Assembly: GCF_000735355.1 (NCBI RefSeq)
Contig: NZ_JMPI01000019.1
Coordinates: 1-33,340, forward strand
DNA: 33,340 bases
Source: Buttiauxella agrestis ATCC 33320
GTDB taxonomy: Bacteria; Pseudomonadota; Gammaproteobacteria; Enterobacterales; Enterobacteriaceae
Direction of reading: 5' to 3'
Shown here: positions 51 to 12,566 of the stretch, in pieces
Numbering within the stretch: the first letter of the stretch is position 1
How the letters are laid out: every line of letters begins with the position of its first letter
The notes under the pieces: generated by a model
What the model was told of the DNA's origin: nothing
Seen by the model: only the letters and a program-made list of their open reading frames with translations
Databases searched by the model: none
Program-made: the position numbers and the translations under genes

Positions 51-830
51 TCAACCCCTACTTTTCCCCAGGCTAAACCGTGAATAAATCTCCTGAGCAT
101 TTGCCTGATAGGTTTGCTGTTTCGATGTTTTGACCACATCCTCCAGGTCTTTCGCTTTAGTCGTACTGGCTGGCGTGATAGGAATCGCTGTCTCGATACT
201 CGCTGGTGAATACATTTCCCAGTTACCCGTTTTGACATCAATAACGGCATAGCGGGTCAAATAGCGTAGTGAACTAATTTGATTGTTATTATTAACCGGT
301 TGATAGTCCTGCCACACAACAGAGTTAGCTTGTTTATCAAATATCCCCATCTGCAATGTTGGCCAGTAAACAATCACTGTGCTTTGTCTACCCCTTGCTC
401 CGAAATAACGTAGAGTCAACATGTAACTGTTGGTGGCAGTGGAGGGTTCTTTATTTGCAGTGATTTTTTTGGAAGGTGAAATCCCAGAGAATGTCGCGAC
501 TTTGTAGTGTTTTTCCAGCTCTTTTTGCATTTCAGTATCAGGGGTTTTCTCTCCTGACTGCACCAAAATAATTGAAGCATTGCGTGGGATGCTTATTTCA
601 TCTTCGGCCTGGGCGAGAGCATCCTGGATATCCTCTTCCGTGATCTCCGCAGAAGGATCCCAACCGAAAAGTTCTTGCTCAGTTAATTGAGGTGATACAA
701 CTGGGCGCGGTTTATATGTCGATTTTTGAGCATCAATAAATTTTCCTTGTTGACCGCATCCAGTTAGTGACAGGCAAAAAATAGCAGACGTGATTCCAAC
801 AATGATCTTTTTAGTTTCCATTCTAATCAT
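51..830 (-). CDS. Unrecognised lipoprotein
   Basis: I do not recognise this 259-residue protein. Its N-terminus is a classic lipoprotein signal: a short basic start, a hydrophobic core, and a lipobox LTGC ending at Cys25, so it should be lipid-anchored in the cell envelope. The mature part is hydrophilic with no further membrane segment; it has an acidic stretch around residues 52-78 (many D/E) and a later region rich in Y, T and aromatic residues. Start choice is uncertain: ATG at 830 has an AAGG only 3 bases upstream, while the second ATG at 821 (METKK...) would have a distant one. The lipobox is in frame for both. It lies in the same direction as the permease gene but upstream of it in position and is separated from it by a terminator, so it is not an obvious part of the purine cluster. 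The reading frame is intact; function unknown. Confidence 0.75.
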   Translation of the reverse strand: MIRMETKKIIVGITSAIFCLSLTGCGQQGKFIDAQKSTYKPRPVVSPQLTEQELFGWDPSAEITEEDIQDALAQAEDEISIPRNASIILVQSGEKTPDTEMQKELEKHYKVATFSGISPSKKITANKEPSTATNSYMLTLRYFGARGRQSTVIVYWPTLQMGIFDKQANSVVWQDYQPVNNNNQISSLRYLTRYAVIDVKTGNWEMYSPASIETAIPITPASTTKAKDLEDVVKTSKQQTYQANAQEIYSRFSLGKSRG

Positions 831-982: not shown

Positions 983-2476
983 TTACTCTTTTGAAGCCGC
1001 AACCTGCCCATTAAAGTCAGCAACTTCATTCACTTTCTCGGCACGAGCCAGCCAGCGGTAGCAGCCTGCGCTCATGAATGCGCCGATAAACCAGCTAAAG
1101 TTTGCCACTTCATGAAGTGAAGGAGTAAAGCTGATGGTCAGACACACTGCGACGGATGGCACCAGAGCAAGAATCGCTTTTGGGTTGAAGCCCCCTTTGT
1201 ACCAGTAGCGTCCTTTAGGAGTGGCATCAAACAGATCGTCGACATAAATTTTGCTGCGTTTGATGATGTAGAAATCAGTCAGCAAAATCCCGAACAGCGG
1301 CCCAATAAACGATCCCAGCACGTCCAGCGTGTAGTGAATAAGTTCAGGGGACTGGAACAGGTTCCACGGTGTCAGTAATACAGAGCCCACGGCCGCAATC
1401 ATCCCGCCTGTGCGGAAGCTAATCTTCTGCGGTGAGCAGTTCGAGAAGTCGAAAGCGGGTGATACGAAGTTCGCGACGATATTAATGCCGATAGTGGCGG
1501 TAATCATGGTCAGCAAACCAATTGCCATCGCGAGGCTGTTGCCAACATGACTGACAGTTTCGATTGGGTCTGTAATCATTTTTCCAAACAACGATTGGGT
1601 GCCGGATACGATAACCACGGTCACAATCGAGAACAGCAGGAAGTTGAACGGAAGTCCCCAGCGGTTGCCACGGCGGATCTCTTTCATGCTTTTACCGTAG
1701 CGCGAGAAGTCACCGAAGTTGAGTAATGGGCCGGAGAAGTATGAAACCACCAGTGCAGTTGCGGTCAGCATTTGCCATGCTTGTTCGCCAGAAGTGAGTT
1801 GTTTACTGGCAAGAGTAAACGAAATTCCATCAAATCCTGTTTGATACAAAATCCAGCCCGCCAGGGCCATCATCACCACATAAACCGCAGGTCCGGCGAT
1901 ATCAATAAAGCGTTTAATCGCATTCATGCCGTGCCAGAACACCATCGCCTGTAGCACCCACATGATGCCAAAGCAGACCCACCCGAGATGCGAAAGACCG
2001 AGAAAGTGCCCGGTGGTCATTGGCGCAAGTGACGGCCAGAACTTGAGCATAACGAGCATCAGGGCGTTGGCTGCCAGCCAGGTCTGAATGCCGTACCAGG
2101 CGAATGCGATAAGACCGCGAATCACAGCCGGAATATTGGCCCCAAATACGCCAAATGCCTGGCGGCAAATGACGGCATAAGGCACACCCGCCATCTGGCT
2201 TGGTTTAGCGACCAGGTTTGCACACAGTTGCACGATGCAAATTCCGACCAACAGGCAAAGCAAAACCTGCCAACTCGCCAGCCCTAACGTGAAGAAACTG
2301 GCTGCGACCACATAGCCGCCCATACTGTGCACGTCGGACATCCAGAAAGAAAAAATATTGTACCAGGACCATGTCTGGTTGCGCGTCGGCGCCAGATCAT
2401 CATTACACAGGCGCGGGCTGTACCCGGCATTGGCGCTATCGGTCAAAACTGATGACGTGTTTTCATTGTTTGGCAT
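983..2476 (-). CDS. NCS1-family permease, probably for allantoin or a related ureide
   Basis: This 497-residue membrane protein belongs to the nucleobase:cation symporter-1 family (Mhp1, PucI, allantoin permease AllW/YbbW). It has about twelve hydrophobic segments and the usual N-terminal pattern: a polar tail with P-T-R-x-Q-T-W-x-W-Y-N, then F-W-M-S-D-V-H, then a conserved G-V-P-Y-A. The frame is open back to an ATG at 2551, but the ATG at 2476 is preferred because AAAGGAG lies 8 bases upstream and a -24/-12-like promoter sits between the two ATGs. It diverges from hpxA-puuE, which supports import of allantoin or another purine-ring product for nitrogen. Family assignment is firm; the exact substrate is inferred from context. 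Hydantoins or uracil-like substrates are alternatives. Confidence 0.9.
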   Translation of the reverse strand: MPNNENTSSVLTDSANAGYSPRLCNDDLAPTRNQTWSWYNIFSFWMSDVHSMGGYVVAASFFTLGLASWQVLLCLLVGICIVQLCANLVAKPSQMAGVPYAVICRQAFGVFGANIPAVIRGLIAFAWYGIQTWLAANALMLVMLKFWPSLAPMTTGHFLGLSHLGWVCFGIMWVLQAMVFWHGMNAIKRFIDIAGPAVYVVMMALAGWILYQTGFDGISFTLASKQLTSGEQAWQMLTATALVVSYFSGPLLNFGDFSRYGKSMKEIRRGNRWGLPFNFLLFSIVTVVIVSGTQSLFGKMITDPIETVSHVGNSLAMAIGLLTMITATIGINIVANFVSPAFDFSNCSPQKISFRTGGMIAAVGSVLLTPWNLFQSPELIHYTLDVLGSFIGPLFGILLTDFYIIKRSKIYVDDLFDATPKGRYWYKGGFNPKAILALVPSVAVCLTISFTPSLHEVANFSWFIGAFMSAGCYRWLARAEKVNEVADFNGQVAASKE

Positions 2477-2527
2477 GAAATCTGCTCCTTTAAAAACAGA
2501 TGCTGACGGAATGTCTGCAACTTTCGT

Positions 2528-2543
2528 TGCATTAACCAGGCCA
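2528..2543 (-). promoter_or_regulatory. Candidate sigma-54 promoter for the permease
   Basis: On the minus strand TGGCCTGGTTAATGCA has the invariant GG-N10-GC spacing of -24/-12 promoters, with three mismatches to TGGCACGN4TTGCA. Predicted transcription would start near 2517, about 40 bases before the ATG at 2476. A similar copy lies exactly 60 bp upstream (2588-2602). Confidence 0.45.
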
Positions 2544-2544
2544 G

Positions 2545-2563
2545 GTTTCATGTTTTGTGGAAC
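2545..2563. promoter_or_regulatory. Imperfect GTTTCA/TGGAAC inverted repeat
   Basis: GTTTCA, 7 bases, then TGGAAC lies in the divergent permease-hpxA spacer. On the minus strand the right arm reads TTTGTTCCAC, one base from the TTTGTTTCAC seen in the palindrome beside hpxU. It may be a variant HpxU site, though its spacing differs (7 rather than 16 between the inner hexamers). Confidence 0.3.
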
Positions 2564-2603: not shown

Positions 2604-2696
2604 CGCGGTTAATCGTTGCGCTTTGCCATGGTGCAATTGAACATTTTGTTGCCCGGATCTGGTGCTAAACCCCGGGAAAAATACAGAGGACTCAAT

Positions 2697-3434
2697 ATGA
2701 CGAAACATTTGATCCAGGTGATCAACCCAAATACTAACGTTGCGATGACACACACCATCGCGCAGGCGGCGCGAAGCGTTGCTGCACCTTCCAGCGAAAT
2801 TATTGCCGTTTGCCCAACGCAAGGTGTGGAATCTATTGAAGGGCATTTTGATGAAGCCATTGCCGCCATTGGTGTGCTTGAGCAAATCAAGCGCGGCAAG
2901 GAGCAGGGAGTGAGCGGCCATGTTATTGCCTGTTTTGGCGATCCGGGTTTGCTGGCCGCGCGTGAACTCGCCAGTGGGCCGGTTATCGGCATCGCAGAAG
3001 CGGCAATGCACGCTGCAACGATGGTTGCGACACGTTTCTCCATTGTGACCACCTTGCCGCGCACCGTGATTATTGCGCGTCATTTATTACGCCAGTATGG
3101 CTTCGAGCACCACTGCGCGGCGTTGCATGCGATTGATCTCCCGGTGCTGGCTTTGGAAGATGGCACGGGTCTTGCTCAGATGAAGGTACGCGAGCGTTGT
3201 ATACAAGCCATGAAAGAAGATAACAGCGGAGCTATTGTGCTCGGTTGTGGCGGGATGGCTAATCTTGCGCGGGAACTGACTGCTGAGTTGGGTATTCCCG
3301 TAATTGATGGCGTCACGGCTGCGGTGAAAATGGTCGAATCCCTCATCGCACTTGGCCTTGGAACCAGTAAACACGGTGATCTCGCGTATCCGAATAAAAA
3401 GCCGTTATCCGGCTGTTTTGACATGCTGAGTTGA
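2697..3434 (+). CDS. hpxA: Allantoin racemase (Asp/Glu/hydantoin racemase family)
   Basis: This 245-residue cytoplasmic protein of the Asp/Glu/hydantoin racemase family interconverts S- and R-allantoin. Two catalytic cysteines are visible: Cys79 in the V-I-A-C-F-G-D-P motif and Cys184 in V-L-G-C-G-G-M, the paired acid/base residues of this cofactor-independent fold. The N-terminal I-N-P-N-T motif is also typical. The frame is open from 2616, but the start is placed at 2697, where AGAGGA lies just upstream and family proteins begin (MTKHLIQVINPNT). It is followed 30 bases later by puuE, so the two are probably co-transcribed, linking racemisation to ring opening. Assignment to allantoin rather than other hydantoins rests on this context and on the known Klebsiella HpxA. 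Confidence 0.9.
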   Translation: MTKHLIQVINPNTNVAMTHTIAQAARSVAAPSSEIIAVCPTQGVESIEGHFDEAIAAIGVLEQIKRGKEQGVSGHVIACFGDPGLLAARELASGPVIGIAEAAMHAATMVATRFSIVTTLPRTVIIARHLLRQYGFEHHCAALHAIDLPVLALEDGTGLAQMKVRERCIQAMKEDNSGAIVLGCGGMANLARELTAELGIPVIDGVTAAVKMVESLIALGLGTSKHGDLAYPNKKPLSGCFDMLS

Positions 3435-3464: not shown

Positions 3465-4421
3465 ATGAATGAAGCACCAAAAACTAAAAACTATCACTTT
3501 ACCGAGAACTACCCGCGCGACATGAAAGGTTATGCGAGTAAGCCGCCACACGCGCAGTGGCCGAATAACGCCCGAGTTGCCGTGCAATTTGTCCTCAATT
3601 TTGAAGAGGGTGGTGAAAACCACGTACTGCACGGCGATGCCGGTTCCGAGCAATTTCTTTCGGATATTATCGGCGCCGCGAGTTTTCCCGACCGCCATAT
3701 GTCGATGGACTCACTCTATGAATATGGCTCGCGCGCCGGGTTCTGGCGCATCCACAATGAATTCCAGAAACGCGGCCTCACCATGAGCATTTTTGGTGTC
3801 GCAATGGCTCTGGCGCGAAACCCTGAAATCGTCGCCGCAATAAAAGCCGCTGATTATGACGTGGTGAGCCATGGCTGGCGCTGGATCCACTATCAAAACC
3901 TCGACGAAGCTACAGAGCGTCAGCACATGCACCAGGCGATAGAAATCCTCGAAGATTTGTTCGGCAACAAACCGCTGGGTTGGTACACCGGGCGCGACAG
4001 CCCTAATACGCGTCGTCTGGTGGCGGAGAATGGCGGTTTTCTTTATGACAGCGATTATTACGGCGATGATTTGCCATTCTGGAGCAAAGTCACCTGTAGC
4101 GACGGCAGCGTAAAACCTCATCTGGTGGTGCCGTATACTCTCGATGCTAACGACATGCGCTTCGCCACCGCGCAGGGTTTTAACACCGCCGAGCAGTTTT
4201 ATACCTATCTTAAAGACAGTTTTGATGTGTTGTATGAGGAAGGGGAAACCGCGCCGAAAATGATGTCGATTGGTATGCATTGCCGCTTGTTGGGGCGCCC
4301 TGGTCGCTTCAAAGCGCTACAACGTTTTCTGGATTATGTGCAGCAACATGACGATGTGTGGATTTGCCGTCGTCAGGATATTGCCGAGCATTGGGTGAAG
4401 ACGCATCCATTTAAGGAATGA
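3465..4421 (+). CDS. puuE: Allantoinase PuuE (polysaccharide-deacetylase fold)
   Basis: This 318-residue protein matches PuuE, the allantoinase that belongs to the polysaccharide-deacetylase (NodB-like) superfamily and is unrelated to the zinc amidohydrolase allantoinases (AllB, HpxB). It opens allantoin to allantoate. Visible family features are the N-terminal N-Y-P-R-D-M-K-G-Y segment, V-Q-F-V-L-N-F-E-E-G-G, the S-H-G-W-R-W stretch and the late M-M-S-I-G-M-H-C-R-L. The ATG at 3465 has AAGGA 7 bases upstream. It follows hpxA in the same transcription unit and ends before a perfect hairpin shared with the converging hpxWXYZ unit. No zinc-type allantoinase is in the window, so PuuE is expected to carry this step. 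Confidence in family is high; length is normal. Confidence 0.93.
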   Translation: MNEAPKTKNYHFTENYPRDMKGYASKPPHAQWPNNARVAVQFVLNFEEGGENHVLHGDAGSEQFLSDIIGAASFPDRHMSMDSLYEYGSRAGFWRIHNEFQKRGLTMSIFGVAMALARNPEIVAAIKAADYDVVSHGWRWIHYQNLDEATERQHMHQAIEILEDLFGNKPLGWYTGRDSPNTRRLVAENGGFLYDSDYYGDDLPFWSKVTCSDGSVKPHLVVPYTLDANDMRFATAQGFNTAEQFYTYLKDSFDVLYEEGETAPKMMSIGMHCRLLGRPGRFKALQRFLDYVQQHDDVWICRRQDIAEHWVKTHPFKE

Positions 4422-4455: not shown

Positions 4456-4839
4456 TTAACTCATCAAGCTGACATGGGCTGCCACAATACGCCAGCCATA
4501 AGGGAATTTGACCCAGGTCTGCATCTGGCGGCCAATTTTATCGCAACCTTCCCGGGTAAATTCGGTACTGGCAACGGCCATATCATCGCCGTAGGTGGTG
4601 ATCGTTGTGTTCTGTAAAAGCCGCTCTAACCCCTGTGAAGAACGGGTATTTCGGAACGCTCTGATCTCATCGATCCCGTACAGGTTTTCACTGGCTCCGT
4701 AGCGCACGGTGCGCGGATCGGACCAGAATAACTCATCCAACACTGCAACATCGTTGCTGATCAACGCCTGTTCGTAGCGGTAAAAAGCGGCACTCACCTC
4801 ATTGACGATTGCCGGGCGATCAATATTATCTCGCATCAT
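4456..4839 (-). CDS. hpxZ: HpxZ, AtzH-like NTF2-fold protein
   Basis: This protein of about 127 residues belongs to the small AtzH/HpxZ group (former DUF3225), an NTF2/SnoaL-like fold. Visible features are N-E-V-S-A-A-F-Y-R-Y-E-Q-A-L, then L-F-W-S-D-P-R-T-V-R-Y-G, then F-R-x-T-R and a C-terminal W-R-I-V-A-A-H-V-S. The open frame begins at 4890, but the ATG at 4839 is preferred: homologues start M-R-D-N, and it lies 10 bases after the hpxY stop with an AAGG upstream. It is last in hpxWXYZ. In s-triazine degraders AtzH is a 1,3-dicarboxyurea deamidase working next to AtzG/AtzE. Here a role on a ureide or oxalurate derivative is inferred and not shown by the sequence. Confidence 0.85.
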   Translation of the reverse strand: MMRDNIDRPAIVNEVSAAFYRYEQALISNDVAVLDELFWSDPRTVRYGASENLYGIDEIRAFRNTRSSQGLERLLQNTTITTYGDDMAVASTEFTREGCDKIGRQMQTWVKFPYGWRIVAAHVSLMS

Positions 4840-4849
4840 AGTATTTACC

Positions 4850-6229
4850 TTACCTGGTGATTTTCCCTGCCAGCATACCCTGTATTTCAAGCCGATGGGC
4901 GGCTCTCAGGCAGATATCTTCTCGCCAGGGCGGCGCAATGAGCTGTACGCCAATAGGAGTGCCACTTGCGGTCATTAACGGCACCGTCACCACCGGTAAG
5001 CCGAGGAAAGAAATTGGCTGTGTCAGCATTCCCATGCTGGCTTTTACAGGAAGGTCTGTGCCGTTGATTCGCATGGTCTGCTGGCCGATAAGTGTTGCGC
5101 TGCATGGCGTAGCCGGGGCAATCAACACATCAAAATCGTCAAATATCGGTAGCGTCTTATCGCGAAACCAGGTGCGGAAACGTTGCGCCTGCGTGTACCA
5201 GGCGGATGGCGTCATTGCGCCTGCCAATAAACGTTCGCGAGAATTAATCTCAAAACGTTCGGCCTGTTCGCGTAGTGCGGGAAGATAATGATTTCCTCCT
5301 TCAGCGGCAGAGAGTAAAAATGCCGCGGAGCGTGCTAATTCGGCTTCTGGCAACGTGATGCATTCCAGCGCCTCGAGCGTGTGAGCCACTTGCGTCACGG
5401 CATTTTTGGCATCCACATCGCACCATTCCTCAAAAAAACCGCCGAGCACCGCGCAACGTAAATGTGTGGCTTGCTCTAGTTGATTGGCGACGGATTCCAT
5501 GCTTCGTGCAGACTGGAAATGATCGGCAGGATCAATACCCTGGAGCGCATCATATACCTGCGCCAGATCGTCCACGCTGAGTGCAAGGGGGCCGATATGA
5601 TCGAGGCTGGCAACAAAAGGCTGGCTGCCGCTGCGTGAAAGACGCCCGAAGGTCGGCTTCAGGCCAAACACGCCACATAGCGAAGCCGGGACGCGAATCG
5701 AGCCGTTGGTGTCGGTTCCAAGCGTAAAATTTACCATTCCAGCCGCGACGGCAGCGGCAGATCCGCCGGATGATCCCCCCGCAATGCGGGCAAAATCATG
5801 TGGATTTCGGGTCGCGCCGTAATGGCTATTTTCCGTGGTAAAACCGTAGGCGTAGGCATCCATATTCAGCGCGCCTGAAAGCATGGCTCCGGCAGCGCTT
5901 AATTGTTTGATGGCGAAGGCATCCGCACTGGCTGGAGGTTGTTTGCTAAAAAGCTCGGCGCCGGCAAGAGTTGTCACACCTTTAATATCAAAAAGGTTTT
6001 TTACCGCATAAGGCACGCCAGCTAACGGTGGCAGCGTTTCCCCGCGGGCGCGACGTTCGTCAATGTTCGCTGCTTCTTGCAGTAAACGCGGGGCGGTTAT
6101 TTCAGTGAAAGCATTAATATCAGGGTTCGATTGCTCTATTTTAGCGAGCGTAAGGCGCGCCAGTTCCTGGGCTGAAAACTCACCGGTTGCTAATCCTTGC
6201 TGAATATCGCGAATGGAAAGCGCGTTCAT
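4850..6229 (-). CDS. hpxY: HpxY, amidase-signature hydrolase (AtzE-like)
   Basis: This 459-residue amidase-signature enzyme has the full Ser-cisSer-Lys triad: Lys77 in G-V-P-Y-A-V-K, cis-Ser153 in G-G-S-S-G-G-S, and nucleophile Ser177 in G-T-D-T-N-G-S. The 24-residue spacing between the serines is the usual one. It resembles AtzE and GatA more than general amidases. Its start overlaps the hpxX stop by 4 bases (ATGA), which fits translational coupling with the small GatC/AtzG-like partner. In the hpx operon it presumably hydrolyses an amide or ureide bond in an oxalurate-type intermediate; the substrate is not established from sequence. The gene is intact and of normal length. Confidence 0.88.
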   Translation of the reverse strand: MNALSIRDIQQGLATGEFSAQELARLTLAKIEQSNPDINAFTEITAPRLLQEAANIDERRARGETLPPLAGVPYAVKNLFDIKGVTTLAGAELFSKQPPASADAFAIKQLSAAGAMLSGALNMDAYAYGFTTENSHYGATRNPHDFARIAGGSSGGSAAAVAAGMVNFTLGTDTNGSIRVPASLCGVFGLKPTFGRLSRSGSQPFVASLDHIGPLALSVDDLAQVYDALQGIDPADHFQSARSMESVANQLEQATHLRCAVLGGFFEEWCDVDAKNAVTQVAHTLEALECITLPEAELARSAAFLLSAAEGGNHYLPALREQAERFEINSRERLLAGAMTPSAWYTQAQRFRTWFRDKTLPIFDDFDVLIAPATPCSATLIGQQTMRINGTDLPVKASMGMLTQPISFLGLPVVTVPLMTASGTPIGVQLIAPPWREDICLRAAHRLEIQGMLAGKITR

Positions 6230-6414
6230 AGTTTATAAACCCCCGCGACTTCCTGACGTTCAGGCAAGGGAAAATCCATTAACGGCTCTGCCAGTTTCTC
6301 CATGCGAGTCAATTGCACTTCAAGTTCCTGGCGGCGTGGCTCATCAACGGGAACGTCGAGCAGTTGCTCCATGACTTTGATGTACGCGGGCCAGTCGATA
6401 GAATTTAATAGCAT
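6226..6414 (-). CDS. hpxX: HpxX, small AtzG/GatC-like partner subunit
   Basis: This 62-residue protein of the DUF4089/AtzG group has the typical layout: a short helix (W-P-A-Y-I-K-V-M-E-Q-L-L), R-R-Q-E-L-E-V-Q-L-x-R-M, then a tail with P-L-M-D-F-P-L-P. These proteins wrap around and stabilise an amidase-signature partner, as GatC does for GatA and AtzG for AtzE. The frame is open upstream to 6552, but ATG 6414 has AAGGAG 6 bases ahead and starts 10 bases after hpxW ends. The ATGA overlap with hpxY supports equimolar production of an HpxX-HpxY complex. Confidence 0.85.
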   Translation of the reverse strand: MLLNSIDWPAYIKVMEQLLDVPVDEPRRQELEVQLTRMEKLAEPLMDFPLPERQEVAGVYKL

Positions 6415-6424
6415 TTTGTTCTCC

Positions 6425-8011
6425 TTAGAATCCTGTGGCGCTGCCGTTACTGCGTGGGTCATATGCGCCTTCAAGCATGCCGTTGATGTGGCGCACAATG
6501 GCTCCGGCGTGGCCGACGGCCTCACTAAAATCAGGCAACGCTTCCACGTCATGTCCCAATTCGCGTAATGCTTTGAACGTTTCCGGGCTGAATCGGCCTT
6601 CTAATTTCAGGCTGTCGGAGGCTTGCCCCCAGGTTCTGCCTAATAACCAGCGTGGCGCGGTCACGGCTTCTTGTAATGGCATCCCCTGAATAACGTGGCG
6701 GGTAAAAATGGCAGCCTGAGTCTGCGGTTGCCCATCGCCGCCCATTGAGCCATAAACCATCGTGCGCCCGTCAGCCAGCCGTGCGGCGGCTGGGTTCAGC
6801 GTGTGGAACGGCTGTTTCCCAGGAGCCAGACTCAGCAAGCTTTCAGGTTGGAGGCTGAACGCCGCGCCGCGGTTTTGCCACAAAATGCCGCTTTTTGGCA
6901 GCACAACGCCGCTGCCAAACTCGTGATAAATGCTCTGAATAAATGACACCGCCAGTCCGCTGCTATCAATCACGCCCATCCATACCGTGTCGCCTGGGCC
7001 TTTGCCGGTTCCCCAGTCTGCGGCTTTAGTGTCGTCAATTTCTGCGGCCAGTGCGGCAAGGGGTTCTGGCTCCAGCAGGCTTTGGATTGAGGTGGTAATG
7101 TGGCGAGGATCGGTAATGTATTTGTCTCGCAGAGCAAAGGCTTTTTTGGTCGCTTCAACGATGCGATGAACGGTTTGAGTTTCATCGGCTTGCGCCATAT
7201 CCAGATTCTCGGTGATCCCGAGGATTGCCAACGACACCAGGCCCTGAGTCGGTGGCGTCATATTATAAACATCACCCAACTCATGGTTCAGATGCAGCGG
7301 AATGCGGCGTTTCGCACGTTGGGCGGCGAGATCCTGCAATGTGATGGGCATGCCTAAATCAGCAAGTTCTTTGGTAATCAGCGCGGCTAACGGGCCGCGA
7401 TAAAAACTATCGAGTCCTTCAACGGTCAGACGCGTCAATGTTTCAGCCAGGCGGGGTTGGGTGAAGCGGCTACCTGCGCGCGGGATTTCACCCCGGTCCA
7501 AAAACGTCTCGGCAAACCCCGCGATATTGACCAGTTCGTCATATTTGCTGTGCGTCGCCTGCGCCTGGGATTGCGTGACCGGAATACCATCTGCCGCATA
7601 GCGAATGGCGTCGGCCAGTAAACGCGAAAGCGGTAATTGCCCGCCCCCAAGTTGTGCCGCAATCTTCAGCGCTTCATCCCAGCCGCTAAGGGTTCCAGGA
7701 ACGGTCAGCGCCGCTTTGGGGCCACGATGCGGGATTGAGGAAGCGCCTGCATAAAATTCTAAAGATGCGAGAGAACCCGCAGCACCGCTGGCATCAATCG
7801 CAATCGGTTCGCCCTCTGGCGGAACAATCAGCCAGAAACCGTCACCGCCAATACCATTCATATGGGGATAAACAACGGCAATGGTTGCCGCTGCAGCCAC
7901 CATCGCTTCGATAGCGTCACCACCATGGCGCAGCACGGATAACGCAGTTTCACTGGCTAAATGATGTGGAGTGACCGCCATACCGGAAGGAGCCATATTG
8001 CTTTGCATCAT
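6425..8011 (-). CDS. hpxW: Oxamate amidohydrolase HpxW (gamma-glutamyltransferase fold)
   Basis: This 528-residue Ntn hydrolase of the gamma-glutamyltranspeptidase superfamily corresponds to HpxW of Klebsiella, which splits oxamate into oxalate and ammonia. The self-cleavage point is visible as G-P-G-D-T-V-W: Thr342 would become the N-terminal nucleophile of the small subunit, followed by the oxyanion and glycine-rich G-S-M-G-G-D-G motifs near the C-terminus. There is no signal peptide, unlike periplasmic gamma-glutamyltransferases, so it should act in the cytoplasm. Two adjacent ATGs are possible starts (8011 and 8008). It is first of hpxWXYZ and is read from a -24/-12 promoter at 8050-8065. 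A general gamma-glutamyltransferase-like role is the alternative, but the neighbours argue for oxamate. Confidence 0.9.
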   Translation of the reverse strand: MMQSNMAPSGMAVTPHHLASETALSVLRHGGDAIEAMVAAAATIAVVYPHMNGIGGDGFWLIVPPEGEPIAIDASGAAGSLASLEFYAGASSIPHRGPKAALTVPGTLSGWDEALKIAAQLGGGQLPLSRLLADAIRYAADGIPVTQSQAQATHSKYDELVNIAGFAETFLDRGEIPRAGSRFTQPRLAETLTRLTVEGLDSFYRGPLAALITKELADLGMPITLQDLAAQRAKRRIPLHLNHELGDVYNMTPPTQGLVSLAILGITENLDMAQADETQTVHRIVEATKKAFALRDKYITDPRHITTSIQSLLEPEPLAALAAEIDDTKAADWGTGKGPGDTVWMGVIDSSGLAVSFIQSIYHEFGSGVVLPKSGILWQNRGAAFSLQPESLLSLAPGKQPFHTLNPAAARLADGRTMVYGSMGGDGQPQTQAAIFTRHVIQGMPLQEAVTAPRWLLGRTWGQASDSLKLEGRFSPETFKALRELGHDVEALPDFSEAVGHAGAIVRHINGMLEGAYDPRSNGSATGF

Positions 8012-8049: not shown

Positions 8050-8065
8050 AGCAAGAGATGTTCCA
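8050..8065 (-). promoter_or_regulatory. Sigma-54 promoter for hpxWXYZ
   Basis: On the minus strand TGGAACATCTCTTGCT matches the sigma-54 consensus TGGCACGN4TTGCW with two mismatches and exact GG-N10-GC spacing. Transcription would begin near 8039, leaving a leader of about 28 bases before hpxW. It overlaps a 6-bp dyad ATCTCT/AGAGAT (8042-8059). Confidence 0.7.
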
Positions 8066-8079
8066 GGTTGACTCTGTTC

Positions 8080-8107
8080 GTTTCACTGTGCCAGGCTCGA
8101 GTGAAAC
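8080..8107. promoter_or_regulatory. Perfect palindrome in the hpxW-hpxU spacer, likely HpxU operator
   Basis: GTTTCACT, 12 bases, AGTGAAAC is a perfect 8-bp inverted repeat between the sigma-54 promoter of hpxW and the hpxU start. Dyads of this kind are typical targets for RpiR-type regulators. Position suggests HpxU autoregulation and control of hpxW. The arm CTTTTGTTTCAC recurs in the hpxJ leader. Confidence 0.6.
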
Positions 8108-8126
8108 AAAAGTTACAGAGGTCATA

Positions 8127-8966
8127 ATGAAACAATTAGATGAGCGCTTAAGGGCGACATATGAACAGCTTTCCCCACAAGAACAGCGAGTTGCTGCATT
8201 TATTGTCGATCGTTTTGATGACCTGATTAGCTACAACAGCGCCGAGTTAGCCCGCCTGTCTGGGGTATCCAAAGCGACGGTTAGCCGCTTATTCAAACGT
8301 CTTGGCTATGACCGCTACAAAGATATGCGCGAAGAGTTGCGTAACCTACGCCAGAGCGGGATGCCGCTCACCGAAAATCGCGATGCGGTACAGGGTAACA
8401 CTTTACTTGCGCGTCATTACAAGCAGGAAATGGCCAATCTAACGCAGTGGGTTAGCCTGCTCGACACGCAGCAATTTGCCGACGTAGTCACAGCTCTCAC
8501 GACGGCAAAACGTATTTTTATTATTGGGTTAAGAAACTCATGGCCGGTTGCGATGCACTTGCGCCAGCAGCTATTGCAGGTTCGTAGTGACGTCTGGCTA
8601 TTGCCGCAGCCAGGGCAGACGCTGGCCGAAGAGGTAGTGGATATCAGTGAACAAGATTGTGTTATCGCCATCGCGTTTCGTCGGCGCCCGCGCATTATCA
8701 AACCGCTGCTGGCAAATTTGCATCAACGTCAGGTGCCGCTGCTGGTGATGAGTGAAGCGCAGGGATCAGGCCTCACACCTTATTGCCGCTGGCATTTTGC
8801 TGCGCCGCTCGACAGTGTTTCGGCCTTTGATAGCTACAGCAGTGCGATGAGTCTGGTGAATCTATTATCCAACGCTGTACTCCACGAAGCGTTAACCACG
8901 GGCCGTCAGCGTATTCACCATATTGCTGAATTGTATTCTGAGTTTGATGAACTGGAACAACGCTAA
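8127..8966 (+). CDS. hpxU: HpxU, MurR/RpiR-family transcriptional regulator
   Basis: This 279-residue regulator has the two-domain RpiR layout. The N-terminal helix-turn-helix includes L-S-P-Q-E-Q-R-V-A-A-F-I, then S-A-E-L-A-R-L-S-G-V-S-K-A-T-V-S-R-L-F-K-R-L-G. The C-terminal sugar-isomerase (SIS) ligand domain runs from about residue 105, with F-I-I-G-L-R-N-S. The frame opens at 8058, but that start would run through the palindrome and promoter. ATG 8127 gives the standard family N-terminus (MKQLDERL) and has AGAGG upstream, so it is used here. It diverges from hpxW and precedes hpxJ, so it probably senses a purine-catabolic intermediate rather than a sugar. It could be activator or repressor. 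Confidence 0.88.
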   Translation: MKQLDERLRATYEQLSPQEQRVAAFIVDRFDDLISYNSAELARLSGVSKATVSRLFKRLGYDRYKDMREELRNLRQSGMPLTENRDAVQGNTLLARHYKQEMANLTQWVSLLDTQQFADVVTALTTAKRIFIIGLRNSWPVAMHLRQQLLQVRSDVWLLPQPGQTLAEEVVDISEQDCVIAIAFRRRPRIIKPLLANLHQRQVPLLVMSEAQGSGLTPYCRWHFAAPLDSVSAFDSYSSAMSLVNLLSNAVLHEALTTGRQRIHHIAELYSEFDELEQR

Positions 8967-8985
8967 CGCACTTTAGTGGTGCGTT
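8965..8985. promoter_or_regulatory. NtrC-type dyad, also a weak hairpin after hpxU
   Basis: GCACTTTAGTGGTGC (8968-8982) fits the NtrC enhancer consensus GCACY-N5-RGTGC exactly. It is the core of a 7-bp perfect hairpin AACGCAC/GTGCGTT right at the hpxU stop. Its centre is about 220 bp upstream of the predicted hpxJ start site, within normal enhancer range. The tail has only TTT, so it is a weak terminator at best. Confidence 0.5.
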
Positions 8986-9042
8986 TGCACGCATCATGGG
9001 AACCATTCTGGTTCATAGATGAAGAGTTAGTGAACGGGTTTT

Positions 9043-9120
9043 GTAGGGTGGATAAGTGGCAGCGTCATCCACCATTTTCGCCGCTTTTGTCGGATGACGC
9101 TGCTGCTTATCCGACCTACG
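9043..9120. repeat. REP-like inverted repeat pair
   Basis: GTAGGGTGGATAAG...GCAGCGTCATCC is followed, after about 15 bases, by the inverted copy GGATGACGCTGCTGCTTATCC...CCTAC. The GTAGGxxGGATAAG core is that of enterobacterial REP/BIME elements found between genes. It sits between hpxU and hpxJ, between the NtrC dyad and the sigma-54 promoter, and may influence mRNA ends or looping. Confidence 0.75.
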
Positions 9121-9171
9121 AAGAGGTATGTCATCTGTCTCGTTTTCTTCTTTGTCTTTCGCGAAAATTGG

Positions 9172-9187
9172 TGGCACATTAGTTGCA
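9172..9187 (+). promoter_or_regulatory. Sigma-54 promoter for hpxJ-hpxKQ-hpxT
   Basis: TGGCACATTAGTTGCA fits the -24/-12 consensus with GG at 9173-9174, GC at 9185-9186, N10 spacing, a full TGGCAC and a full TTGCA. Transcription should start near 9198, about 40 bases before hpxJ. A palindrome TTTCGCGAAA (9157-9166) lies immediately upstream. Confidence 0.8.
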
Positions 9188-9206
9188 GAATATTTTAATT
9201 AAGAAT

Positions 9207-9218
9207 CTTTTGTTTCAC
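9207..9218 (+). promoter_or_regulatory. HpxU half-operator in the hpxJ leader
   Basis: CTTTTGTTTCAC is identical over 12 bases to one arm, with its flank, of the palindrome at 8080-8107 (read on the minus strand). It lies just downstream of the predicted sigma-54 start, a position suited to repression. No matching second arm is obvious. Confidence 0.45.
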
Positions 9219-9238
9219 GCAGAATAAAAGGAAATACC

Positions 9239-10480
9239 ATGTTTGATATTCAGCACTTCTCACAAATCAATCCACCGCATCGTTTGTTAATGGGGCCGGG
9301 GCCAATCAATGCAGATCCCCGCGTATTACGCGCGATGGCGAGTCAGTTGATTGGGCAGTATGACCCGGTTATGACCGGTTATATGAACGAAGTGATGGTG
9401 CTGTATCGCGAACTTTTCCGCACGCAAAACCGCTGGACGATGCTGGTGGATGGGACTTCCCGCTCCGGTATCGAAGCGATTTTGCTGTCGGCCATTCGCC
9501 CCGGCGACAAAGTCCTTGTCCCGGTGTTTGGGCGCTTCGGCCATCTGCTGTGTGAAATTGCCCGTCGTTGTCGCGCAGAAGTTCACACCATAGAAGTGCC
9601 GTGGGGTGAGGTTTTCACGCCCGACCAAATCGAAGATGCCATTAAAACGGTGAAACCGCGTTTGCTGCTAACCGTTCAGGGCGACACGTCTACCACCATG
9701 CTACAACCGCTGGAAGAACTGGGTGACATCTGTCGTCGCCACGGCGTGTTGTTTTACACCGATGCCACAGCTTCATTTGGCGGCAACAAACTGGAAACCG
9801 ACGCCTGGGGTTTAGATGCGGTTTCTGCCGGTTTGCAAAAATGCCTCGGCGGCCCGTCGGGCAGCTCGCCGATAACCTTGAGTGCGCAAATGGAAGAGGT
9901 TATTCGCCGTCGCAAATGTGTTGAAGAAGGGATCCGAACCACAGCCCATCAGGACGGCGATGACGAAATGATCTACTCGAATTATTTCGATCTCGGCATG
10001 GTGATGGATTACTGGGGGCCGGAACGCCTCAACCACCATACCGAAGCCACCAGCATGTTGTTCGCCGCCCGTGAATGCGCGCGCATTATTCTCGAAGAAG
10101 GGCTGGACGTGGGCATCGCGCGCCACGAATTGCATGGTCGTGCGCTGGTGGCCGGAATTCAGGGCATGGGGCTGGAAACCTTCGGCAATCTACAACACAA
10201 AATGAACAACGTACTTGGCGTTGCGATCCCGTCCGCTGTTCACGGTGAAGAAGTGCGCAAAATGCTGCTCGAAGATTTCCATATCGAAATTGGCACCTCA
10301 TTTGGCCCGCTACAAGGCAAAATCTGGCGCATCGGCACCATGGGCTATAACGCGCGTAAAGATTGCGTACTGCAAACCCTAACGGCGCTTGAAGCGGTGC
10401 TTAACCGCCTCGGTTTTAAATCGACGCAAGGGGCTGCAATGCAGGCCGCGTGGGATGTTTATGCGCAGGAAAGTCGCTGA
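9239..10480 (+). CDS. hpxJ: (S)-ureidoglycine-glyoxylate aminotransferase
   Basis: This 413-residue class-V PLP aminotransferase corresponds to HpxJ/PucG, which transfers the amino group of unstable ureidoglycine to glyoxylate, giving oxalurate and glycine. The PLP lysine is Lys201 in S-A-G-L-Q-K-C-L-G-G-P-S-G. The ring-stacking/aspartate motif is Y-T-D-A-T-A-S (Asp175). The N-terminal L-M-G-P-G-P motif is that of the alanine-glyoxylate/serine-pyruvate aminotransferase group. ATG 9239 has AAAGGAAA upstream and fits family length. It is first in the unit and overlaps hpxKQ by one base (TGATG), so the enzyme that makes ureidoglycine and the one that consumes it are co-translated. Confidence 0.93.
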   Translation: MFDIQHFSQINPPHRLLMGPGPINADPRVLRAMASQLIGQYDPVMTGYMNEVMVLYRELFRTQNRWTMLVDGTSRSGIEAILLSAIRPGDKVLVPVFGRFGHLLCEIARRCRAEVHTIEVPWGEVFTPDQIEDAIKTVKPRLLLTVQGDTSTTMLQPLEELGDICRRHGVLFYTDATASFGGNKLETDAWGLDAVSAGLQKCLGGPSGSSPITLSAQMEEVIRRRKCVEEGIRTTAHQDGDDEMIYSNYFDLGMVMDYWGPERLNHHTEATSMLFAARECARIILEEGLDVGIARHELHGRALVAGIQGMGLETFGNLQHKMNNVLGVAIPSAVHGEEVRKMLLEDFHIEIGTSFGPLQGKIWRIGTMGYNARKDCVLQTLTALEAVLNRLGFKSTQGAAMQAAWDVYAQESR

Positions 10481-12234
10481 TGGTTAAACAAGTCATGAAC
10501 GCCATGCAGGCGAGTTTTGCCGCTCGCCGAATTATGCAGCGAGCAGATGAACTGGCGCAGGTTAGCGAAACGCCGGAACAACTTACTCGAGTCTATCTTT
10601 CACCTGAGCATCTGCGCGCCAATTATCTGGTGGCAAGCTGGATGGAACAGGTGGGAATGACCACCTGGCAAGATGCGGTGGGCAACATTTGCGGGCGCTA
10701 TGAAGGCGCAAGAGAAGGCGCTCAGGCTGTTTTACTTGGCTCACATCTTGATACCGTACGTAATGCCGGGCGTTACGATGGCATGTTGGGTGTCTTAACC
10801 GCGCTGGAAGTTGTCGCTTTTCTCCATGAACATAATCTTCAATTAGAGCAGGCGATTGAAATCGTTGGCTTTGGGGATGAAGAGGGTACGCGTTTTGGCA
10901 TCACATTATTAGGCAGTCGTGGCGTGACCGGGACGTGGCCGGATAACTGGCTGGCGTGTGAAGATGCCGCAGGTATCAGCGTTGGGCAAGCACTGGTGAA
11001 TGCCGGTTTTGACCCTTCGCGTATTCAGAGTGCGGCGCGTGGCGCGGAAGAGTTCAGTGCTTATCTGGAACTGCATATCGAACAAGGGCCGGTGCTGGAG
11101 CGCGAAAATCTGGCGCTCGGCGTGGTGACTGCCATAAACGGCGCTCGTCGTCTGAAATGCCGCTTTGTTGGCGAAGCAGGGCATGCAGGTACGGTGCCGA
11201 TGACCATTCGTAAAGATGCGCTAGCAGCCGCCGCGAATTGGATGACTTACATCGAAAGCACGACTGCCAGTTACGCCCCAGATATTGTTGCGACTGTCGG
11301 CTCGCTGCAATGTTTACCGGGCGCGGCGAATGTGATTCCGGGGGAAGTCCTGCTCACGCTGGATATCCGCAGTCCGCGAGATTCAGATATCGAAGCGCTG
11401 CTTGAAAAACTCTTAAGCGAAGCGCTGCAAATCGCCGCTCAACGAGGTGTGGCGTTCGACTCTGAAATCTATTATTCGATTCCCGCCACGCCATGTGACG
11501 CGAGTTTGCAGCGCCAGTTAACATCAGCCATCACTTCGGTGCAGGGGCGTAGTTTATCGCTGCCAAGTGGCGCAGGGCATGATGCGATTGCCATCGCTGA
11601 ACTCTGGCCGGTGGGCATGATGTTTGTGCGTTGCGATCGTGGGATTAGCCACCATCCGGCAGAATCTGTCACTGAGGCTGATGTGATGCAAGCGGTGCAG
11701 GCATATACACAAACGGTGGTGAATTTGGCTTCAATGAATCCACTGGCAGAGTTTAACCATGCAACGGAAAGCGAAGCGCTAAGCCTGATAACACCCTGTG
11801 TTGCGATACCAGCATGGGTTGAAAATCTGGTTGCCGCCCGGCCTTATGCGACCGTCGATGTGTTGCAGCATTATGCCTCGCAACTGACACTGGATTGGGG
11901 GCGCAATGAACTGAACCAGGCGCTTAGCGCACATCCGCGGATTGGTGAAAAAGCGCAGGGCAGCAGCAAAGAGGCGGCGTTGTCAAAAGGTGAACAGTCT
12001 GCTGTCGATACGCAAAACAGCGCGTTAACGCTCGCGCTGGTGCAGGGGAATGCTGATTATGAAGCGCGGTTTGGGCGAGTATTTCTTATTCGAGCCAAAG
12101 GGCGCAGTGGCGAAGACATTCTCGGGGAGCTTAAGCGTCGCCTGAATAATTCGCCAGCCGAGGAAGAAGCTGAAGCGCTGGAGCAATTACGCCAAATCAC
12201 GTTGTTACGCCTGGAAGGAGTGTTTGCATCATGA
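10480..12234 (+). CDS. hpxK: Fused allantoate amidohydrolase and OHCU decarboxylase
   Basis: This 584-residue protein joins two enzymes. Residues 1 to about 415 are an M20-family allantoate amidohydrolase (HpxK/AllC type) with metal ligands His89 (G-S-H-L-D), Asp100 (Y-D-G), Glu134/Glu135 (G-D-E-E-G), His199 (H-I-E-Q-G-P) and a late G-A-G-H-D. Residues about 421 to 584 are a complete 2-oxo-4-hydroxy-4-carboxy-5-ureidoimidazoline (OHCU) decarboxylase (HpxQ/UraD type), with His485 in H-P-R-I-G-E and Glu505 in K-G-E-Q at the catalytic 20-residue spacing. There is no stop or frameshift at the join. It would catalyse OHCU to S-allantoin and allantoate to ureidoglycine, two non-consecutive steps. 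ATG 10480 overlaps the hpxJ stop; 10495 is a second choice. Confidence 0.93.
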   Translation: MVKQVMNAMQASFAARRIMQRADELAQVSETPEQLTRVYLSPEHLRANYLVASWMEQVGMTTWQDAVGNICGRYEGAREGAQAVLLGSHLDTVRNAGRYDGMLGVLTALEVVAFLHEHNLQLEQAIEIVGFGDEEGTRFGITLLGSRGVTGTWPDNWLACEDAAGISVGQALVNAGFDPSRIQSAARGAEEFSAYLELHIEQGPVLERENLALGVVTAINGARRLKCRFVGEAGHAGTVPMTIRKDALAAAANWMTYIESTTASYAPDIVATVGSLQCLPGAANVIPGEVLLTLDIRSPRDSDIEALLEKLLSEALQIAAQRGVAFDSEIYYSIPATPCDASLQRQLTSAITSVQGRSLSLPSGAGHDAIAIAELWPVGMMFVRCDRGISHHPAESVTEADVMQAVQAYTQTVVNLASMNPLAEFNHATESEALSLITPCVAIPAWVENLVAARPYATVDVLQHYASQLTLDWGRNELNQALSAHPRIGEKAQGSSKEAALSKGEQSAVDTQNSALTLALVQGNADYEARFGRVFLIRAKGRSGEDILGELKRRLNNSPAEEEAEALEQLRQITLLRLEGVFAS

Positions 12235-12566
12235 GTCAGTTGAGTACGCATGTTCTTGATACTGCGCTCGGGAAGCCGGCGACAGGTGTGGCGATTTGCC
12301 TTGAACAACAGCTTGGTGACACCTGGGAAACGGTGGCGCAGGGGGTCACTGACTCTGACGGGCGGCTGAAAGATTTCACACCTGCGGCATTGGCGGCGGG
12401 GCGGTATCGTCTGACGGCAGAAATTGGGCTTTATTTTGCCGCAACACACAGAGAAACACTGTATCCCACCGCGCAAATTGATTTTGTGATACCGCAAAAC
12501 GGCGGGCACTATCACCTGCCGTTTTTGATTTCCCCGTGGTCGTGGTCGACCTATCGGGGAAGTTGA
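12231..12566 (+). CDS. hpxT: 5-hydroxyisourate hydrolase
   Basis: This 111-residue transthyretin-related protein ends in the signature Y-R-G-S, and has the N-terminal S-T-H-V-L-D (His7), R45 and H-Y-H-L-P (His93/His95) motifs that form the active site between subunits. It hydrolyses 5-hydroxyisourate to OHCU, which the HpxQ domain just upstream decarboxylates. The start overlaps the hpxKQ stop by 4 bases (ATGA). There is no signal peptide, so it is the cytoplasmic form. Its stop codon directly abuts the yafV stop on the other strand, with no terminator visible. Confidence 0.95.
   Translation: MSQLSTHVLDTALGKPATGVAICLEQQLGDTWETVAQGVTDSDGRLKDFTPAALAAGRYRLTAEIGLYFAATHRETLYPTAQIDFVIPQNGGHYHLPFLISPWSWSTYRGS

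Follow-up and report, generated by a model that had tools for sequence, protein, structure and literature searches.

A single gene joining hpxK and hpxQ, probably for a bifunctional enzyme of purine catabolism, in Buttiauxella agrestis and related enterobacteria

The fused gene and its two domains

The purine-catabolic (hpx) gene examined here lies in a 33,340-nucleotide stretch of the Buttiauxella agrestis ATCC 33320 genome (contig NZ_JMPI01000019.1, positions 1 to 33,340 of the forward strand), hereafter the window. At window positions 10480-12234 on the plus strand, a single open reading frame (ORF) of 584 residues, with one terminal stop in its translation, carries domains matching two enzymes: HpxK, an allantoate amidohydrolase, and HpxQ (UraD), a decarboxylase of 2-oxo-4-hydroxy-4-carboxy-5-ureidoimidazoline (OHCU). 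A 594-residue ORF with its start at GTG 10450 is an upstream extension of the same frame. The parts of the gene are as follows.

10480..11730, plus strand: HpxK-type M20 allantoate amidohydrolase domain (N-terminal, residues 1-417), by NF006773, Pfam M20 and an AlphaFold model compared with AllC 1z2l_A
11731..11751, plus strand: linker, residues 418-424, left uncovered by NF006773 on one side and TIGR03180 on the other (junctions tabulated for 21 fused proteins)
11752..12234, plus strand: HpxQ/UraD-type OHCU decarboxylase domain (C-terminal, residues 425-584) and stop codon, by TIGR03180 and likeness to 3o7h

A preliminary description of this DNA had proposed that one frame holds a complete M20 amidohydrolase and a complete HpxQ-type decarboxylase, and an NCBIfam scan bore this out, with both cut-offs passed. 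The equivalog model NF006773 ("allantoate amidohydrolase") matched residues 1-417 with 732.8 bits (cut-off 584; model positions 1-417 of 419), and the equivalog-domain model TIGR03180 (UraD_2) matched residues 425-581 with 180.5 bits (cut-off 139.4; model positions 1-157 of 158). Pfam placed PF01546 (Peptidase_M20) at residues 85-413 and PF09349 (OHCU_decarbox) at residues 426-579, the latter with 137.8 bits over its full profile (1-155 of 155). The joint between the domains is only about seven linker residues long.

Six residues of the amidohydrolase (H89, D100, E134, E135, H199 and H391) and three of the decarboxylase (H485, E505 and R577) are identical in all 21 fused proteins aligned, which are the window protein and 20 of the 21 fused loci from named genomes described below (L052 was left out). 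The catalytic residues listed in the preliminary description are thus all intact, and H391 and R577 are additions to its list. In these families, H89, D100, E135, H199 and H391 form the two-metal site, E134 is the catalytic Glu, and H485, E505 and R577 are the active-site His, Glu and Arg of the decarboxylase. R538 had been a candidate for the third decarboxylase residue; it was rejected in favor of R577 when alignments with Protein Data Bank entries were re-read, since position 538 is Ala in 13 of 13 fusions of the opposite domain order (see below) and position 577 is Arg in all.

An AlphaFold2 model built from 20 fused sequences had a mean predicted local distance difference test score of 80.6 and a predicted template modeling score of 0.71. 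When this model was searched with Foldseek, the first domain matched Escherichia coli AllC (1z2l_A) with a template modeling (TM) score of 0.82 by target length, and the second matched the Klebsiella pneumoniae OHCU decarboxylase 3o7h (TM 0.90 by target length, 60% identity); among the 50 matches listed of 1111, none was described as a fusion of both domains. By sequence, the nearest solved relatives of the second domain are likewise the K. pneumoniae OHCU decarboxylase and one other OHCU decarboxylase. Median ratios of nonsynonymous to synonymous substitution rates (dN/dS) were 0.07 for the amidohydrolase and 0.10 for the decarboxylase (21 pairs of 7 Buttiauxella sequences; L037 left out), values that are rough because dS in the amidohydrolase exceeds 1 for four of the six pairs that include the window. 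By these ratios, both domains are under purifying selection.

In the window sequence, residue 419 is encoded by an in-frame ATG; another ATG, at residue 403 in the last amidohydrolase helix, is shared by 7 of 8 Buttiauxella sequences, with a Shine-Dalgarno-like match of 3-4 bases. A free C-terminal domain might therefore also be made if translation began internally, at the joint or close to it, but we consider this highly improbable: one of the 21 fused proteins has the ATG at 419, with a 3-base match (in L049 there is a Met nearby), and the ATG at 403 is absent from other genera and so is not conserved beyond Buttiauxella.

The hpx cluster and the route from urate to oxalurate

The operon order is hpxJ-[hpxK-hpxQ]-hpxT. 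The start codon of the fusion, ATG at 10480, shares bases with the hpxJ stop codon TGA (TGATG), and the stop codon of the fusion shares bases with the hpxT start codon ATG (ATGA). The fusion lies among the following genes.

9239..10480, plus strand: hpxJ-like class V aminotransferase (PF00266), a ureidoglycine aminotransferase by context
12231..12566, plus strand: hpxT/uraH, 5-hydroxyisourate hydrolase (TIGR02962, 120.1 bits)
3465..4421, plus strand: puuE allantoinase, acting between the two fused domains (TIGR03212, 528.9 bits)
2616..3434, plus strand: Asp/Glu/hydantoin racemase family gene (PF01177, 204.7 bits), an allantoin racemase by context
983..2551, minus strand: NCS1-type permease, an allantoin/purine transporter by family (PF02133, 281.7 bits; NCBIfam allantoin permease models below their cut-offs)
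8058..8966, plus strand: RpiR-family regulator of the cluster (PF01418, PF01380)
4456..8011, minus strand: hpxW-X-Y-Z-like oxalurate branch (gamma-glutamyltransferase-like protein, HpxX, AtzE-type amidase, AtzH-like protein)

In the oxalurate branch, NF033624 (HpxX) and NF006631 (AtzE) were over their cut-offs, TIGR00066 was just under its cut-off, and PF11533 matched. Genes resembling yafV and fadE adjoin the hpx cluster in the window.

In this pathway, urate is converted to 5-hydroxyisourate (HIU), HIU to OHCU by HpxT, OHCU to allantoin by HpxQ, allantoin to allantoate by PuuE, allantoate to ureidoglycine by HpxK, and ureidoglycine to oxalurate by HpxJ; PuuE takes the S form of allantoin. 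The urate hydroxylase HpxO is encoded on another contig of the B. agrestis genome (632.4 bits; cut-off 500), and the genome has a single UraD match. Judged by these family matches, the run from urate to oxalurate is encoded in the genome. The preliminary description had placed both racemization and ring opening between the two fused reactions. Ring opening stands, as one obligatory enzyme, the allantoinase PuuE; racemization need not intervene, because dextrorotatory allantoin is the enzyme product according to a passage of PMC4562309. Passages of the same paper quote half-lives of 7.2 and 9.6 minutes for HIU and OHCU and, in a study of gene distribution, have UraH and UraD accompany urate oxidase, and a passage of PMC4016543 describes ureidoglycine as labile.

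Fused, adjacent and unfused forms in related genomes

A UraD match was found in 93 of 392 genomes of the family (that of B. agrestis included). In 22 of the 93 it lies in a fused open frame of 581-626 residues, and the other 71 frames have at most 237 residues. By genus code, the fused genomes belong to g1 (6), g65 (4), g99 (2), g75 (3), g41 (3), g18 (2) and g74 (2). The alignment extends over both domains in 20 of the 22 (in L012 only from residue 88; masked stretch), and G258 and G195 were taken as fused by open-frame length alone.

A second scan covered named genomes, partly the same ones, and took the best 80 of 335 relatives. The 80 loci fall into three groups: fused (21), with hpxK and hpxQ adjacent but separate (34), and without UraD at the locus (25). 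The fused form occurs in Buttiauxella, Dryocola, Cedecea, Franconibacter, Mangrovibacter, Pluralibacter and Pantoea sp. IMH, in records named Enterobacter or Enterobacteriaceae bacterium, and in one record titled "Chryseobacterium." The contig of the last (L047) has an Enterobacteriaceae-like hpx cluster and probably comes from a mislabeled or contaminated assembly. Adjacent genes are found mostly in Pantoea and Erwinia, and also in Tatumella, Mixta, Winslowiella, Chimaeribacter, one Serratia and two records named Enterobacter. Loci without UraD belong to Klebsiella, Enterobacter, Lelliottia, Kosakonia, Phytobacter and others; in none of these 25 loci was UraD or hpxT found.

The fusion was kept in relatives, which the preliminary description had named as support, and the sequencing error near codon 418 (a hidden stop or frameshift) that it named as a way to overturn the fusion does not explain the joint. 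An artefact of sequencing or assembly that joins two genes can be dismissed with near certainty: no stop interrupts the frame at the joint in the 21 named loci, which come from separate assemblies, or in the 22 family genomes (partly overlapping sets).

The neighbors are the same whether hpxK and hpxQ are fused or adjacent. All 21 fused named loci have hpxJ upstream of the fusion and hpxT downstream of it, and the order is J-K-Q-T in 34 of 34 adjacent loci. In the adjacent loci, hpxK and hpxQ overlap by ATGA, GTGA or TAATG in 7 of 34 and are separated by a 2-16 base spacer in 16 of 34; the remainder have longer spacers or an unclear hpxQ start (Pantoea sp. Eser, L100, whose hpxQ frame shows no clear start). 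After the stop of hpxK, hpxQ continues in the same frame with no further stop between in 13 of 34. In a locus of Enterobacter cloacae (L092), hpxK is split over two consecutive frames.

Such loci, with the same gene order throughout and, in those 13, one stop codon between the genes, suggest that coupled neighbors could have merged neutrally, so that the protein carries out the same two reactions as the separate enzymes and the tether has no effect. This explanation, which shares the bifunctional reading, is a serious contender that we would put somewhat short of an even chance. It also accommodates the presence of HpxK without UraD where HpxO is missing (see below), but it fits less well with a fusion that is kept across several genera with a short linker and a dN/dS of about 0.1. 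Pure accident becomes less likely still because the same pair is also fused in mirror order, from another UraD subfamily.

That HpxK and HpxQ are separate in Klebsiella, as the preliminary description had stated, was confirmed: the 17-kb K. pneumoniae hpxJK locus (L106) has no UraD match, and a stand-alone UraD lies elsewhere in the genome. The Klebsiella proteins are orthologous to the two domains, with 60% identity over HpxQ (3o7h) and 66-69% over HpxK (five Klebsiella loci); they differ from the window protein in being separate, with no UraD found in the hpxJK locus.

HpxO passed its cut-off in all 20 of the other fused genomes searched (L052 left out) and in both Phytobacter genomes that combine an unfused HpxK with a stand-alone UraD. 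It passed in none of the five genomes where no UraD matched (L070, L071, L072, L081 and L109), all of which retain hpxJ-hpxK; three of the five are closely related and the others are a Kosakonia and a Lonsdalea, which makes about three independent cases, and their assembly completeness is unstated. Genome-wide absence of UraD was checked in 10 of the 25 genomes with a UraD-less locus, where contigs below 3,000 bases may be missing. By these co-occurrences, UraD tracks the urate hydroxylase HpxO.

Six unfused relatives (L070-L072, L075, L076 and L081) fall inside the fused group in the tree described below. Their hpxK ends near the domain border, and yafV follows it by 40-301 bases in five of the six (no yafV was seen at L081); L070-L072 lack hpxQ and hpxT and have yafV closely 3' of hpxK.

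In a plasmid collection, a DNA search with the fusion gave 2 Klebsiella records. The protein search returned 1291 records, of which one, from Caballeronia insecticola, covers at least 80% of the query (residues 2-487, 35.5% identity).

The same two enzymes fused in the opposite order

A search for the same two domains across relatives, suggested in the preliminary description, found the window's order (forward fusions) in part of the Enterobacterales and the opposite order in 13 of 398 phylum genomes. The latter came from a scan with NF010373, which gave 13 full-length matches, 4 of them over the cut-off; in all 13, UraD comes first and the amidohydrolase second in one frame, and the nine active-site residues of both domains are present. 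In two mirror fusions that were scanned, the UraD part matched TIGR03164 with 167.6 and 186.3 bits (cut-off 96.25) and was below the TIGR03180 cut-off. The 13 amidohydrolases form their own clade, with support 99, in a tree with distant rows (55 rows, midpoint root). Of six mirror-fusion loci inspected, a PuuE frame is the immediate neighbor of the fusion in three and lies about 0.9 kb away in a fourth; none was found in the other two. A Variovorax plasmid record has the mirror fusion in one piece (75.9% identity over its full length), and in Azospirillum records the match falls in two neighboring pieces.

NF010373 / PRK13799 is named "unknown domain/N-carbamoyl-L-amino acid hydrolase fusion protein." By the TIGR03164 matches and the active-site His, Glu and Arg in 13 of 13, its "unknown domain" is an OHCU decarboxylase. 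The same two enzyme families are therefore joined in one polypeptide in both systems, and the mirror fusion differs from the window protein in its domain order, in its TIGR03164-type UraD (in the two scanned) and in its separate amidohydrolase clade; the window protein, with 397 bits against a cut-off of 1087, is not a member. The CDD entry PRK13590 is named as a putative bifunctional OHCU decarboxylase/allantoate amidohydrolase. The preliminary description knew of no characterized example of the fusion. We found no paper describing an HpxK-HpxQ fusion in a literature search that covered subscription journals thinly, and in this respect the statement holds, but the mirror-image fusion is already an NCBIfam model.

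Phylogeny of the amidohydrolase and decarboxylase

The amidohydrolase tree comprised 78 rows (21 fused, 34 adjacent and 23 without UraD). L052 (masked stretch), L074 (cut by a contig end) and L092 (amidohydrolase in two frames) were left out of the trees, and L037 was left out of alignment A2. Twenty fused rows and the six unfused relatives lie on one side of a branch, and the remaining fused row, L064, sits inside the adjacent Erwiniaceae. A single origin of all forward fusions was rejected: in approximately unbiased (AU) tests, a clade of the 21 fused and six unfused rows failed on account of L064 (p 6.6e-6). A clade of the 20 fused rows without the six unfused rows was also rejected (p 1.5e-5). 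In the decarboxylase tree (65 rows), L064 is again among the Erwiniaceae, and ten stand-alone UraD rows stand beside or among the fused rows in an arrangement that the tree leaves open. The hpxK of Pseudomonas punonensis (L112; neighbors HpxZ-Y-X, RpiR and HpxJ) forms a long branch among the Erwiniaceae, possibly through horizontal transfer of the cluster.

Proposed function and origin of the fused protein

We consider it probable that the gene encodes a bifunctional purine-catabolic enzyme, and that it most likely arose by fusion of the coupled operon neighbors hpxK and hpxQ. We infer that both activities reside in one polypeptide: the N-terminal domain would hydrolyze allantoate to ureidoglycine (the HpxK reaction), the C-terminal domain would decarboxylate OHCU to (S)-allantoin (the HpxQ reaction), and PuuE, from a separate gene of the cluster, would convert allantoin to allantoate between the two. 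Overlapping or closely spaced hpxK and hpxQ would have become one frame in part of the Enterobacteriaceae, a second fusion of the same order would have occurred in Pantoea sp. IMH, and a mirror-order fusion from another UraD subfamily would have occurred in Variovorax-type bacteria. We infer fusion, not splitting, as the direction of change because the adjacent form spans at least two families outside the Enterobacteriaceae (Erwiniaceae and Yersiniaceae).

Several points weigh against this reading, the first of them on origin. The branch uniting the fused group has a support of 94, below the star level. In the distant-row tree, the forward fusions are basal within the enterobacterial part: the rows of Pluralibacter and Mangrovibacter branch off outermost, and adjacent and Klebsiella rows are nested further in (supports 86-95). 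On these data, an old fusion that was later split would be as possible as fusion. The single frame would then be ancestral in this gene family of the Enterobacterales, and the adjacent genes of Erwiniaceae and the distant genes of Klebsiella would be derived, a history that we regard as unlikely overall. It agrees with the free distant-row amidohydrolase tree, both in the basal fused rows and in the 13 other rows (adjacent, Klebsiella-type and L064) that form one group at 95. The supports at the tree base are 86-92, however, and one clade of 9 forward fusions and 3 unfused relatives was not rejected on the same row set (AU p 0.33). Placing Erwiniaceae and Yersiniaceae inside Enterobacteriaceae would also clash with their accepted taxonomy, unless genes moved between them.

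On the side of function, the six unfused relatives show that the amidohydrolase is kept where the decarboxylase is missing. Because the two reactions are not consecutive, the sites share no metabolite that could be channeled between them. The sequence-nearest solved relative of the first domain is the L-N-carbamoylase 3n5f (302.3 bits), followed by other M20 amidases, UAH and AllC (1z2l, 180.6 bits), and because the closest is an L-carbamoylase, it is the family model and the operon that point to allantoate as the substrate. The same literature search found no assay of the window protein.

As for the effect of the fusion, the preliminary description had guessed at equal amounts or at tethering around OHCU and ureidoglycine. 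Both remain conjectural, as it is HpxT and HpxJ, from the neighboring genes, and not the fused partner, that hand over those labile compounds. For the bifunctional enzyme proposed here, the tether would most likely give one-to-one amounts and co-localization; passing a metabolite straight from one site to the other is not the effect that we expect.

Co-localization could also extend further, to a metabolon scaffold in which HpxT-HpxQ (labile HIU and OHCU) and HpxK-HpxJ (labile ureidoglycine) are held together with PuuE docking between them. The order J-K-Q-T is the pathway in reverse, with PuuE missing at the K/Q joint; PuuE adjoins or lies near the mirror fusion in the four loci noted above; and direct contact between E. 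coli allantoin-pathway enzymes is reported in PMC10163214. We nevertheless find such a scaffold rather improbable, given that PuuE is 6 kb away in the window and was not found in the other two mirror loci. Slightly more speculative again is the joint proposal that HpxK-HpxQ is the core of a ureide metabolon, with HpxT on the decarboxylase end, HpxJ on the amidohydrolase end and PuuE between, and that selection for such a particle, consuming both labile intermediates, drove fusion at least three times and in both orders.

Comparison with other fusions of the pathway

Two known fusions resemble the window protein. The plant OHCU decarboxylase-HIU hydrolase (TTL) also joins an OHCU decarboxylase to another enzyme of the ureide pathway, and both activities were measured in the fused protein according to a passage of PMC2834698; it differs in its partner and in joining consecutive steps. 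DAL2,3,3 of Cryptococcus neoformans (allantoicase-ureidoglycolate hydrolase) is likewise a fusion within the same pathway, discussed in a passage of PMC3646786 as possible channeling, and differs in being fungal and in joining other enzymes at consecutive steps. A pathway known for fusions of consecutive enzymes thus gains a conserved fusion of two non-consecutive ones. The surprising part is that the same two are fused in both orders, which leaves room for a larger assembly. The related loci (adjacent, in-frame adjacent, fused and unfused) provide a natural series in which the effect of fusion can be tested. There is also a consequence for annotation. Among NCBIfam models, the top match for the whole protein is "allantoate amidohydrolase," a name that would hide the decarboxylase; because model names hide it or say "unknown domain," genomes can appear to be without an OHCU decarboxylase.

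Other observations at the hpx loci

The HpxX frame at window positions 6226-6552 (minus strand) is probably over-extended, as the 55-position HpxX model covers residues 54-108 only. A 259-residue frame beside the permease gene (window 51-830, minus strand) had no match in Pfam or NCBIfam. The aminotransferase gene on a plasmid of Serratia symbiotica (L204) is immediately preceded by ABC transporter genes. The gap between the RpiR gene and hpxJ is about 3 kb in the Erwiniaceae and Klebsiella loci L053-L059 and L106, which is not so in the window (8966-9239).

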